NCBI GenBank assembly: GCA_021324855.1
Contig: JAJPIG010000015.1
Coordinates: 62,001 to 126,000 of the forward strand
Direction: 5' to 3'
Length of the DNA stretch: 64,000 bases
Origin: Pseudomonadota bacterium
Lineage (GTDB): Bacteria; Desulfobacterota; Binatia; Binatales; Binataceae
Shown: in pieces, positions 46,085 through 57,957 of the stretch
Layout of the letters: each line of letters begins with the position of its first letter
Numbering within the stretch: the first letter of the stretch is position 1
Notes under the pieces: model-generated
Databases searched by the model: none
Told to the model about the DNA's origin: nothing
The model's input: the letters and a program-made list of their open reading frames with translations, nothing else
Translations under genes and position numbers: made by a program

Positions 46085-47593
46085 GTGCCGATGTCGGGGG
46101 CAAAGCCGGGCCAGTTCGTCGTACTGGTCAGCATCTCGCTGGTCGCCCTTATCGGCCTCGTCGGGCTGGCGGTCGATGCCGGCTACCTCTACACAGTTCG
46201 CCGACACATGCAGACCACCGCCGATGCGGCCGCGATCGCGGCGGCCAACGTGATAGAGAGCGGTCAAAGCGGCGGGTATCAACAGGCGGCGAAGGATGTC
46301 ACCGCGATCAACGGCTTCACGGACGGCATCAATTCGGTCGCGGTGACGGTCTCTTCTCCGCCTGCCGATGGGACTTATGCCGGTCTTGCGAATTACGTCG
46401 AAGTGAAGGTTTCGCAGCCGGTCCCGACCTTCTTTTTCAACATCCTGGGATTTTCTTCAGTGACGGTCGGGGCGCTCGCCGTAGCCGGCAAGGTTAACGG
46501 GCCGGCTTGCGTCTACGCGCTCGATCCCTCGGCTCCCGGCGCCATCTCTCTCAATGGCAATTTCAGTTTGACCGCATCATGCGGCGTGCTGGCCGACTCG
46601 AACAGTTCCTCGGCGCTCAAGGCGACCGGCAACGGCAGCTTGACGGCAACCTCGATCGGCGTGGTCGGGAACTACTCTGCCAATGGCAACGTGTCCCTGA
46701 CTCCCCAGCCGCACATTAATGTCGCGCCGGCGCCGGATCCGCTTTCAGGGCTTCAGCCGCCGAGCTTTTCGGCTTGCTCGCAGCAATCCACCACTAACAG
46801 CGGCAGCTATGTAGTGAGCGGTAACAATCCGGTGGTCACAGTGCCGCCTGCGGTCTATTCCGGCGGGATGAATATCGGCGGTAACAACAGCACGGTTACT
46901 TTCAGCGGCGGGACGTATGGCAACGGAATCGCATTGAATGGTAACAACGGCAGCGTAACGTTCAATCCGGGCCAATATCAGAGCGGCGGCAGCGGCAACG
47001 CAATTTCGATCGCCGGCAATGCGACCACCACCTTCACCGCCGGCGCCTACGCATTTTGCGGTCCGGTATCGATCACCGGTAATAACAACGTGACCTTGAG
47101 TCCCGGAGTTTACTCCGGCGGCATCAGCATCACCGGCAACGCGACCGTGAAATTCAATCCCGGCACCTACATTCTGGCCGGCGGCGGACTTTCGGTCACC
47201 GGCAACTCGATTCTGACCGGGTCCGGGGTGACCTTTTATGACACCACCGGTCCGGGCGGTTACAAAGGGATCGATCTCGCCGGCAACGAGCGGGCGAATC
47301 TGAGTGCGCCGACCTCGGGCGCGATGGAAGGCATCCTGTTCTTCCAGGATCGCTCGATCGGCGCCGGTTCACCCGCCAGCTCGATCGTCGGCAACGCGCA
47401 GTCGACCTTCGACGGCGTGATCTATTTCCCCACCACCGCGATTCGTTACGTCGGAAACTCAAGCGGGAGCGGATACACAATTCTGGTTGCCGACACGATT
47501 TCGGTCGTCGGCAACGCGTCGCTCCAGATCGGCAACGACTACTCGTCGCTTACCGACGGTTCGCCGATCAAATCTACCGCGCTCTACGAGTAG
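46085..47593 (+). CDS. Tad-like (TadG) protein with Asn/Gly-rich beta repeats
   Basis: The start is GTG 46085, 6 nt after AAGGAG; an ATG at 46091 is the alternative. Residues ~8-65 are the TadG-type membrane-anchored segment QFVVLVSISLVALIGLVGLAVDAGYLYTVRRHMQTTADAAAIAAAN. Residues ~150-430 contain many short repeats of the type [IV]-x-GNxx-[VT]-x-F-x-PGxY-x-GG, for example in ALNGNNGSVTFNPGQYQ and SITGNNNVTLSPGVYSGG. They look like a right-handed beta-helix. The rest is exported. No TadA ATPase, prepilin peptidase or RcpA is in the window, so the secretion machinery must be elsewhere. Confidence 0.82.
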   Translation: MPMSGAKPGQFVVLVSISLVALIGLVGLAVDAGYLYTVRRHMQTTADAAAIAAANVIESGQSGGYQQAAKDVTAINGFTDGINSVAVTVSSPPADGTYAGLANYVEVKVSQPVPTFFFNILGFSSVTVGALAVAGKVNGPACVYALDPSAPGAISLNGNFSLTASCGVLADSNSSSALKATGNGSLTATSIGVVGNYSANGNVSLTPQPHINVAPAPDPLSGLQPPSFSACSQQSTTNSGSYVVSGNNPVVTVPPAVYSGGMNIGGNNSTVTFSGGTYGNGIALNGNNGSVTFNPGQYQSGGSGNAISIAGNATTTFTAGAYAFCGPVSITGNNNVTLSPGVYSGGISITGNATVKFNPGTYILAGGGLSVTGNSILTGSGVTFYDTTGPGGYKGIDLAGNERANLSAPTSGAMEGILFFQDRSIGAGSPASSIVGNAQSTFDGVIYFPTTAIRYVGNSSGSGYTILVADTISVVGNASLQIGNDYSSLTDGSPIKSTALYE

Positions 47594-47601
47594 GCTCCGA
47601 A

Positions 47602-48078
47602 ATGCCGCCGTCCATCGATAATCGCGACTCCTTGCGCCGGAACCGCAGATGGTTTCTCGCCCCCGGCCAGGGCGCTGCCGAGCTGGCGCTGACCCTGCCC
47701 GTGCTGATTCTGCTTCTCCTGATCGGCACCGATTTGGCCCGCGTCTTCTACCTGAGTATCGGGGTTAACAGTGCGGCGCGCGCGGGTGCGGAGTATGGAT
47801 CTCAGAGTGTGATCACCGCCGCCGATTCCGACGGTATGATCGCGGCGGCCAGGAATGACGGCGCCAATCTACCGAGCCTTAGTGTCACGGCCATCCAATG
47901 CACGTGTATGAGCCCTTCGTCGGTTCCGGCCTGCCCGCCGAACTATTGTGCCGACAACCCTCAGGGCACTTACGTGACGGTCACAGCGCAGGCCCCGTTT
48001 CACACGGTTGTCACTTATCCCGGCCTGCCTTTTTCTATGACACTTTCGGGCAAGGCAATCATGCCGGTGCAGCGATGA
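47602..48078 (+). CDS. TadE family pilus-like protein
   Basis: This 158-residue protein has the TadE signature QGAAELALTLPVLILLLLIGTDLARVFYLSIGVNSAARAGAEYG near residues 25-65: a charged residue, then a hydrophobic helix with a glutamate at the fifth position. The remainder is a small exported domain with four cysteines (CTCMSPS and CPPNYC). It follows the TadG-like gene by 8 bp and overlaps the next TadE-like gene by 4 bp (ATGA). Confidence 0.87.
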   Translation: MPPSIDNRDSLRRNRRWFLAPGQGAAELALTLPVLILLLLIGTDLARVFYLSIGVNSAARAGAEYGSQSVITAADSDGMIAAARNDGANLPSLSVTAIQCTCMSPSSVPACPPNYCADNPQGTYVTVTAQAPFHTVVTYPGLPFSMTLSGKAIMPVQR

Positions 48079-48494
48079 TCGGACGGGCGAACCTTCGGCG
48101 CACTCGGGCCGGCCAGAGCACGGTCGAATTTGCCGCTGTGATGACGGTTTTCCTGCTGCTCACCTTCGTGACGATGAAGCTCGCGCTGGCCGTCTACAAC
48201 TACAACATCGTATGCTCGGCGGCGCGCGAAGCGGCGCGTTATGCGATGGTTCGCGGGCCGAACAGTCCCAACCCGGCCACCACCGCGCAAATCCAGCAGG
48301 CCGCGATCGATGCGGCGCCGGGACTGAGCCTCGCGACCGGCAATATCAATGTGTCGTGGGTGAACGACCCGAATCTTCCGTCGCGCAAGGATGTGGAAAT
48401 TCAGATCAGCTATCCGTACACGCTGTCGATACCCTTCATGTCCTCGCGCACGCTGACCCTCTCCAGCACCGCGCAGATGCTCGCCGCACAGTAG
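48075..48494 (+). CDS. TadE/TadF-like pseudopilin
   Basis: The ATG at 48075 overlaps the previous stop (ATGA). The 139-residue protein begins with a short basic N terminus, then RAGQSTVEFAAVMTVFLLLTFVTMKLALAVYNYNIVCSAAREAARYAMV, the TadE/TadF helix with glutamate at the expected site. A small C-terminal beta domain follows. Together with the two genes upstream it makes a three-gene minor-pilin set. A longer in-frame extension upstream overlaps the previous gene and is not used. Confidence 0.86.
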   Translation: MIGRANLRRTRAGQSTVEFAAVMTVFLLLTFVTMKLALAVYNYNIVCSAAREAARYAMVRGPNSPNPATTAQIQQAAIDAAPGLSLATGNINVSWVNDPNLPSRKDVEIQISYPYTLSIPFMSSRTLTLSSTAQMLAAQ

Positions 48495-52348: not shown

Positions 52349-52921
52349 TCAGTGGCGTCCGGCCTTGCGCACCGGATGGTCGGGCGGCAGCGTGCAAAAA
52401 TCATCGCTCCCGACCTCAAACACACGGTTGAAGCGCGCGCGGAAATTTTCGAGCGCGACGGCGGCCGCGAGCTCGACCAACTGCGGAACGTCGAAAAACT
52501 TCTGTAGCTCGGCAAACAACGGATCGGGAATCGTGGCCGGCGTCGCGGTCATCGCTTCGGTCAGGCGCAGCACCGCCTTTTCCTTCGCGTCGAATGCCGG
52601 ACTGCTTTCGAACTCGGCGACGGTTTCGAGCTGATCATCGCGGATGCCCTGGTCTCTGCCAACGGCAGAATGGATATCCACTCAGAACGGGCATCCGGCC
52701 ATCTGCGCCGCGCGGAGCGACGCAAGGGTCTTGAGTCGCGGCTCGACGATTTTCGAGCCGCTGATCACGGCTCCGAGGTTCGTCGTCACCGCGAGCAGGT
52801 CGGGCACGTGCGCGGTCACCGTCGTTGGTGACGGCACGCGGCCGAGGGCTTTTTCGGCGCGCTGATAGATCTCCTGGACGGCCGGCGGAGCCTGCCCGAA
52901 ATCAACGCCTTTGATTCGCAT
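52349..52921 (-). CDS. AhpD/carboxymuconolactone-decarboxylase-fold protein with in-frame TGA at the second active-site cysteine (candidate selenoprotein)
   Basis: The frame runs from ATG 52921, behind GGGAG at 6 nt, to the stop at 52349, 191 codons, interrupted only by TGA at 52682..52684 (codon 80). The first 79 residues end ASLRAAQMAGCPF; directly after the TGA comes VDIHSAVGRDQGIRDDQ. In this fold the active site is C-x-x-C followed by hydrophobic residues and His, so the TGA sits exactly at the second cysteine (CPF-U-VDIH). The rest, with FDAKEKAVLRLTEAMT and FDVPQLVELAAAVALENFRARFN, is intact and family-like. A gene caller would report two abutting genes, 52682..52921 and 52349..52681. 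Family members are peroxidases or disulfide-type reductases; a CxxU pair would make a strong redox centre. Confidence 0.87.
52654..52670 (-). promoter_or_regulatory. Candidate SECIS hairpin in the carboxymuconolactone-decarboxylase-like gene
   Basis: Nucleotides 13-18 after the UGA (UCUGCC) pair perfectly with 22-27 (GGCAGA) around the triloop GUU; a U-G pair extends it by one. The loop begins 18 nt after the UGA and its first base is G. Bacterial SECIS elements are described as having a 3-14 nt loop with G in the first two positions, 16-37 nt from the UGA, so this meets all three criteria. Confidence 0.75.
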
Positions 52922-53018
52922 CGAAGTCTCCCTTCCGATCCGAGCGGCGGACCGCGCCGCGTCGTATCACGTTCGTCCGGACTATAGCGCTAATTCAGGA
53001 TGATCGGGGAGGCGAAAG

Positions 53019-56639: not shown

Positions 56640-56724
56640 CCGGGGCCGCGCGCCCGTCCGAGCCTTTGATATGCCGGGACAAACGGATAGATAAGCAGAT
56701 CACCCGACTCGAGGAGGAGTGTTC

Positions 56725-57957
56725 GTGGAGGCCAAAAAAGGCGCGCGCGCCGATTACAGCAAGGAACAACTGTTGGCCAAGGCCAAGGAGCTCTCGGCGG
56801 AGTTCGCCCGCACGCATTCGATGCACGATCTCCAGCGCACGTTTCCGCATCACGAGATGGCGACGTTGAAAGCGAGCGGGCTCCTCGTCTCGGCAGTGCC
56901 GGCGGCATTCGGAGGCGTCGATTTTTCGTTCAGCGACTTGATCGAGACTGTCCTCACCCTGGCGCAGGGCAATCCTTCGATCGCACACATGTATGCCGAG
57001 CATGCGATCATCACCAAGGACATCGTATCGCGCGTGCCGAAGAAGGAACTTAGAGAATCGCTGTACAAGGAGATCCTGAGTCAGCACGCCTATATTACGG
57101 CTGCAGGTTCGGAGCGCAATTCAAAGGACGTGCTCGCATACGAAACCACGCTGACCCCGGTTGAAAATGGCAGGGCGGTGCTGATCAATGGGCGCAAGTT
57201 TTTTGCGACCGGTGCGATCGCCAGTGATTTTCTGTGGGTGCCCGGCGTGATGGACGGCGGGGCCGCGAGCGCCTTCGTTCCGACGCGGACGCCCGGCCTG
57301 TCGGTGCTCGACGACTGGGATGCGATGGGCATGCAGGCGACGTGGAGCGGCTCAGTGGTCTTCAAAGACGTGCGCGTGCCGATCGAACGCGTCGTGCCGG
57401 CGACCACCGATCCGCGCACGCTGGAGCCCGATCAGCTTTTCGGCCCGATGTTCCAGACAGCTTTCACCGCGATTCCATTAGGCGCGGCGATCTCGGCGTT
57501 CAATCACGCCGTCAACTACGTCAAGACCAAGACCCGGCCCTTCCCGGCTGCGAACGTGAAAGCCGCCACCGAGGATCCATATATACTGCGTGAACTCGGC
57601 CGGATGCGCTCCTATCTCTCCGGATGCGAGTTGCTGGTGCGCGAAGCCGCGCGCTACATCGATCACGTGGTTGAGCTGCGCGACAAGCTGCCGCGCGAAG
57701 AATTGATGAAGATGCGGGTCGAGGCGATGTCCAAAGTCGCGCAGGCGAAGATCGTGACCACTGATACCGCTTTGAGCGTGACCACCGACGTCTTCAAGGT
57801 CTGCGGCGCGCGAGCGGCGCTTCGCGATGAAAACACGGACCGTTTCCTCCGCGATGTCAGAACCATTACGGTGCACGATCCCGTCGATTACAAGGCGAAG
57901 CTGGTCGGCGAATGCGTCGTGCGCGGCGACTACACTTACGTTCCGTTTCTGACCTAG
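56725..57957 (+). CDS. Acyl-CoA dehydrogenase-family flavoprotein
   Basis: Translation likely begins at GTG 56725, 5 nt after GAGGAGGAG; a GTG at 56719 lies inside that ribosome site. The 410-residue protein has the family pattern HHEMATLKASGLLVSAVPAAFGG, YITAAGSERNSKDVLAYETTLTPVENG, INGRKFFATGAIASDFLWV and DDWDAMGMQATWSGSVVFKDVRVP, then the helical C-terminal domain. The usual catalytic glutamate position is not obvious, so it may be a flavin monooxygenase (HsaA/DszC-like) rather than a dehydrogenase. Downstream of the MetE-like gene on the same strand. Confidence 0.86.
   Translation: MEAKKGARADYSKEQLLAKAKELSAEFARTHSMHDLQRTFPHHEMATLKASGLLVSAVPAAFGGVDFSFSDLIETVLTLAQGNPSIAHMYAEHAIITKDIVSRVPKKELRESLYKEILSQHAYITAAGSERNSKDVLAYETTLTPVENGRAVLINGRKFFATGAIASDFLWVPGVMDGGAASAFVPTRTPGLSVLDDWDAMGMQATWSGSVVFKDVRVPIERVVPATTDPRTLEPDQLFGPMFQTAFTAIPLGAAISAFNHAVNYVKTKTRPFPAANVKAATEDPYILRELGRMRSYLSGCELLVREAARYIDHVVELRDKLPREELMKMRVEAMSKVAQAKIVTTDTALSVTTDVFKVCGARAALRDENTDRFLRDVRTITVHDPVDYKAKLVGECVVRGDYTYVPFLT

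Follow-up and report, generated by a model that had tools for sequence, protein, structure and literature searches.

Selenoproteins of the carboxymuconolactone decarboxylase (CMD) or AhpD-like type, in which selenocysteine (Sec) forms part of a CxxU motif, were described in 2005 by Zhang et al. (PMC1088965). AhpD-like 1 and AhpD-like 2 proteins, the latter corresponding to pfam02627, were counted in the GOS data in 2008 (PMC2398784), and CMD-like selenoproteins appear in the available parts of reviews from 2022 (PMC9312934) and 2026 (PMC13188914). In AhpD of M. tuberculosis, the proton relay comprises Glu118, Cys130, His132, Cys133, and His137, and the position of the relay glutamate is occupied by Glu36 in PA0269 (PMC3141380, available part).

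In the present work, we analyzed a putative gene of this kind; 'the window' means the whole 64,000-nucleotide stretch of DNA that was studied. The host probably belongs to the Binataceae of Binatota, a phylum of largely uncultured bacteria, and a full-text literature search for selenoprotein or selenocysteine together with Binatota returned no relevant paper; in the one paper listed, selenocysteine appears in the reference list alone. The predicted protein resembles the CMD/AhpD-like CxxU selenoproteins in having the PF02627 domain, Sec at the second position of CxxC, and a SECIS-type hairpin past the UGA, and differs from them in its host, the comparison being one with their descriptions, as far as these were available, rather than their sequences. 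It is well supported that the Binatota protein adds to a kind known since that first description, and Binatota can thereby be added to the phyla with a CMD-type selenoprotein.

A gene interrupted by an in-frame TGA

A reading of the DNA made from the sequence alone (the sequence-only reading) had described two open reading frames that abut exactly in one frame, without naming a strand. We found them on the minus strand: an ATG frame at 52921-52682 encodes 79 residues ending in AGCPF, followed by TGA, and a GTG frame of 110 residues at 52681-52349 begins right behind this triplet. A Shine-Dalgarno-like GGAAGGGAG, read by eye, precedes the first ATG at 52928-52936 (minus strand). Translation with TGA as U gave a single protein of 190 residues (52349-52921, minus strand), in which the TGA (52682-52684) is codon 80 and takes the place of the second cysteine of CxxC within GCPF-U-VDIH, as had been proposed; by codon count, the codon of the first CxxU residue, Cys77, lies at 52691-52693. 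A single PF02627 (CMD) match extends across the TGA (residues 41-122, 45.3 bits with a cut-off of 23), and this match, together with the confident AhpD-type model described below, bears out the suggested CMD/AhpD-fold identity. Since translation table 11 splits the gene into two separate ORFs, as the sequence-only reading had foreseen for ordinary annotation, the protein is easily missed, and many relatives with TGA at the position of codon 80 are equally easy to miss. The best NCBIfam match was NF053654 (GroundWater_YciW, YciW-related (seleno)protein), which aligned residues 2-174 with positions 3-175 of the 179 in the profile at 108.9 bits, far under its 310-bit cut-off.

We assign a probability of roughly 0.93 to the reading that the gene encodes one 190-residue CMD/AhpD-fold selenoprotein with Sec at residue 80. 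The other way to read the locus is to take the TGA as a real stop, either in a gene freshly broken by a nonsense mutation or between two separate adjacent genes. The two frames given by table 11, the second having its GTG right behind the TGA, agree with a real stop, whereas the single domain bridging the TGA speaks against it. To follow the codon in relatives, we searched 57 genomes, 52 of which gave a match, and aligned 75 CMD sequences taken from these and from named records, the window protein included. The results showed that the best-scoring 22 of the 75 (window included) all carry the same TGA, and that more distant sequences have Cys in its place, neither of which is expected of a real stop. 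In this column, 44 of the 73 sequences with a residue have TGA, 8 have Cys, and 21 have another residue (two gaps were set aside); the set was chosen by hand, partly for TGA, and these proportions are not rates. Seven Cys forms were also read directly at the same column. Thus, the in-frame UGA aligns with Cys in homologues, as in other bacterial selenoproteins. A consistent stop here in homologues, which the sequence-only reading had named as fatal to its proposal, is not what the relatives show.

We also calculated dN/dS on both sides of the TGA. For the 13 pairs of relatives that share over 70% identity, none of which includes the window gene, the ratio was 0.08-0.24 past the TGA and, in the 11 pairs with unsaturated dS, 0.13-0.31 ahead of it. 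Between the window gene and its nearest relative, L023, it was approximately 0.16 ahead of the TGA and 0.31 past it (our own division). Because purifying selection acts on either side of the TGA in the relatives, the stretch past it is, as judged from these ratios, coding, which again argues against a real stop.

Selection on the hairpin behind the TGA

The UGA is followed after 12 nt by UCUGCC-GUU-GGCAGA (52655-52669, minus strand), a perfect 6-bp stem whose apical loop begins 18 nt past the UGA with a G, and all these features agree with what the sequence-only reading had reported. A G in the apical loop of bacterial SECIS elements is described in PMC1088965 (available part), and the hairpin has the placement of such an element, directly behind the UGA and with an early G in its small apical loop. 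At gathering scores, Rfam matched only one tRNA over the window.

To estimate how often such a structure occurs by chance, we scanned both strands of the window for perfect stems of 6 bp or longer that enclose a small loop, have G in one of the first two loop places, and stand at a suitable distance behind a TGA. Such a hairpin was found after 41 of 1838 TGA triplets, and for 86 of the 1838 the frame stays open over 60 or more codons both before and after the triplet. Approximately 1.9 coincidences of hairpin and open frame would be expected by our own arithmetic, and one was seen, namely, this gene. We therefore rejected the hairpin as stand-alone evidence; since its coincidence with an open frame is at chance level, its significance rests on the CxxC position, the relatives, the codon choice, and the Sec machinery.

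Of 19 close Sec genes, 16 have all six stem pairs and three have five; L023 keeps five of the six. The six Cys homologues examined retain just one or two of the six pairs. In all 12 genes with Ser and Arg at the two stem ends, Ser is invariably encoded by TCT, and Arg by AGA (10 genes) or AGG (2 genes). These codons make up 4.3% of the Ser codons (TCT) and 1.7% (AGA) and 1.3% (AGG) of the Arg codons in seven ORFs of the window, which served as the usage reference in place of the relatives' own genomes. The probability of obtaining the six Watson-Crick pairs of the window stem from random synonymous codons was 0.009. The covariation score of the stem was 0.220, compared with 0.090 in shuffled alignments, and none of 500 shuffles scored as high. 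Two stem pairs show changes on both sides, but 140 of the 500 shuffles reached this number as well, and 44 of 500 equaled the stem in its further pair types; three of the six pairs never vary among the genes compared. A generic hairpin rule found a match in 40 of 44 TGA genes (missing 4), in 1 of 8 Cys genes, and in 1 of 21 others. The hairpin is thus under selection at the RNA level, as shown by computation, which is a further point against a real stop. The earlier interpretation as a bacterial SECIS element gains support from these data, as the hairpin covaries and is missing from the Cys forms examined.

Selenocysteine machinery and the exchange of TGA and Cys

The host genome (3.75 Mb, 38 contigs, 96% complete) contains selA (579 bits), selB (369.6 bits), and tRNA-Sec (71.7 bits, anticodon TCA by ARAGORN). 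The selD gene adjoins selB on the same contig (392.2 bits) and has an in-frame TGA of its own. With selA, selB, selC, and selD all in the genome, a lack of Sec machinery, which the sequence-only reading had considered decisive against a selenoprotein, is excluded. From the known bacterial system we infer that SelB, carrying Sec-tRNA, would recognize the hairpin past the UGA and that Sec would be inserted at residue 80.

Across the class, we used data from 148 genomes, of which 69 gave matches with E values no higher than 1e-25. With a tighter limit of approximately 3e-33, set after viewing the match list, 47 genomes have TGA forms only and nine have stop-free forms only, and G076 has both. The stop-free forms of these nine genomes and of G076 have Cys where they were read (at least one form per genome). 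Within this limit, selA scored over its cut-off in 44 of the 47 TGA-only genomes versus 1 of the 9 Cys-only genomes (Fisher P ~1e-6). The contrast was weaker at 1e-25 (P 0.0009): of 43 genomes with TGA forms only, 40 have selA, compared with 9 of the 17 that have stop-free forms only. Some of the weak matches added at this limit carry neither Cys nor Sec in the column; L049, for example, has Glu. G039 has a Cys form alongside selA and selB.

The TGA genomes without selA over the cut-off are G010, G079, and G142. G010 has selB, and G079 and G142 have neither gene over the cut-off. Either translation may truly end at the TGA in the latter two, or their assemblies may be incomplete. The two genomes agree with a real stop in general; nevertheless, on the evidence of conservation, of the hairpin, and of selection, we rejected both the pseudogene and the two-gene versions of that reading, and a real stop at codon 80 is hardly credible for the gene in the window.

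Other CMD proteins with in-frame TGA were observed. A search of genome contigs with the one protein as query found no match, and an alignment query gave 11 loci. In the host's own genome, 2 of 11 PF02627 matches carry an in-frame TGA. The second of these two, L116 (1381-1920 on contig C15), is a candidate CMD selenoprotein with NCFY-U-TQSH, in which the Glu and His relay residues are present as counted by eye, and the TGA is followed by a 7-bp hairpin, ACGCAGA-GTT-TCTGCGT. In other genomes of the class, L070-L082 except L073 are very divergent CMD proteins with the TGA in the same column and different hairpins, their Sec contexts including DCNLU, ECQLU, and QCLTU. G044 and G050 each have at least four divergent Sec CMD proteins, an apparent expansion. 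Outside Binatota, related Sec CMD proteins were seen in Acidobacteria and Chloroflexi (L057-L061), with an apical loop of five bases as against three.

Fold, active site, and proposed chemistry

A model from the single sequence was poor (pLDDT 66.6), and we used instead a model based on an alignment of the window protein with ten relatives (11 sequences; pLDDT 93, pTM 0.88). In a Foldseek search, the lowest E value was that of the debrominase Bmp8 (6.6e-07), closely followed by AhpD-like peroxidase-related proteins, which had higher TM-scores. When ranked by Z, AhpD-like structures lead (6k40: Z 22.5, rmsd 1.9 over 179 residues), Bmp8 gave Z 20.2 with an rmsd of 3.0 over 179 residues and 22% identity, and M. 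tuberculosis AhpD gave a Z of just 11.7.

The predicted protein shares with the AhpD-like proteins 2prr, 2oyo, 6k40, and PA0269 and with M. tuberculosis AhpD the fold, the position of the CxxC/U pair (C77, U80), and the spacing of His84, four residues past the second member of the pair. It differs from them in having Sec for Cys and, twelve residues ahead of the first Cys, Thr65 in place of the relay Glu, and most close relatives have Asn for the relay His. The equivalents of the M. tuberculosis relay residues are thus Thr65, Cys77, Phe79, Sec80, and His84. Most of the closest relatives have Thr, Ser, or Arg in place of the relay Glu. In our sample, gathered with one query, 6 of the 44 Sec genes keep both relay residues; of the 8 Cys genes, 2 keep both and 5 have neither. 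All seven separately read Cys relatives lack the relay. The idea that Sec replaces the proton relay was not kept, as the Cys relatives mostly have no relay either. Since Cys members of the subfamily also do without it, the loss of the relay is not explained by selenium alone and, as far as the alignment indicates, belongs to the subfamily. A subfamily that keeps the CxxC/U pair and has no AhpD relay raises the question of how its nucleophile gets activated. Cys176 and His182 are invariant in the 13-sequence alignment A1 and variable beyond it.

Cys77 and Sec80, where the active-site helix begins, would act together as a CxxU redox pair. The selenolate of Sec80 would most likely attack and reduce a hydroperoxide or another oxidized substrate, Cys77 would resolve Sec80 to form a selenenylsulfide, and a cellular dithiol would then reduce the selenenylsulfide. 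This peroxide or oxidoreductase chemistry, proposed from the motif and the fold, has in our judgment about an even chance of being correct. Because the relay Glu is absent and the same fold houses Bmp8, the function as a peroxidase or reductase, which the sequence-only reading had derived from the fold, stays at the level of such a derivation; the peroxidase assignment is weakened by Thr at the Glu position in this protein and by Asn at the His position in most close relatives.

Two other proposals differ from the preferred selenoprotein reading in chemistry alone. First, instead of being a peroxidase itself, the protein could chiefly work as a thioredoxin-like adaptor or reductase, in the way that M. 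tuberculosis AhpD serves AhpC as an adaptor (PMC3141380, available part). The CxxC/U pair in an AhpD fold is consistent with such a role. No ahpC-like gene was found among the seven neighboring genes scanned, the gene context is not conserved, and the relay Glu is absent, and we regard the adaptor role as possible but rather unlikely.

Second, the protein could reductively remove a halogen as Bmp8 does, with selenium used as in thyroid deiodinases, which are known to depend on this element. In addition to being the lowest-E structural match, Bmp8 (6ohi, 6ohj) matches by sequence over most of the length (residues 12-168, 4.9e-12) and has a CxxC-type site, and, like the clade studied here, it lacks a relay Glu, as counted by eye on the alignment. 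Against a dehalogenase stand the lead of AhpD and peroxidase-related structures by Z and the fact that Bmp8 has Cys only; moreover, C82, which was mutated to obtain the structure of Bmp8 with substrate, would correspond to Cys77 and not to Sec80, judging from the offset in residue numbers. A halogenated substrate has no support here, no halogen-related gene was recognized among the seven neighbors scanned, and the literature search found no paper on the link to thyroid deiodinases. Thus, dehalogenation by this protein is improbable, and it is more improbable still that the AhpD fold has a relay-less, selenium-using branch, common across Binatota, of reductive dehalogenases that do not act on peroxides. 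If this were true, the branch would be a bacterial counterpart of the thyroid deiodinases in an unrelated fold.

A luciferase-like monooxygenase (LLM) gene lies 41 nt downstream of the selenoprotein gene. The LLM gene is adjacent in none of 12 relatives, and PPK is directly upstream in one of the 12, the same-genus genome L056, in which a distant LLM-like gene lies approximately 3.9 kb downstream. We rejected an operon with LLM or PPK as a clue to function, since this context is not conserved across the 12 relatives. Elsewhere in the window, 56719-57957 (plus strand) encodes a flavoprotein of the acyl-CoA dehydrogenase type that scored 274 bits with SfnB and 238 bits with DszC, both below the cut-offs; its product is perhaps a sulfur-acquisition monooxygenase. 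At 46085-48494 (plus strand), a run of ORFs resembles, by eye, TadE/TadG-type pilus assembly proteins.
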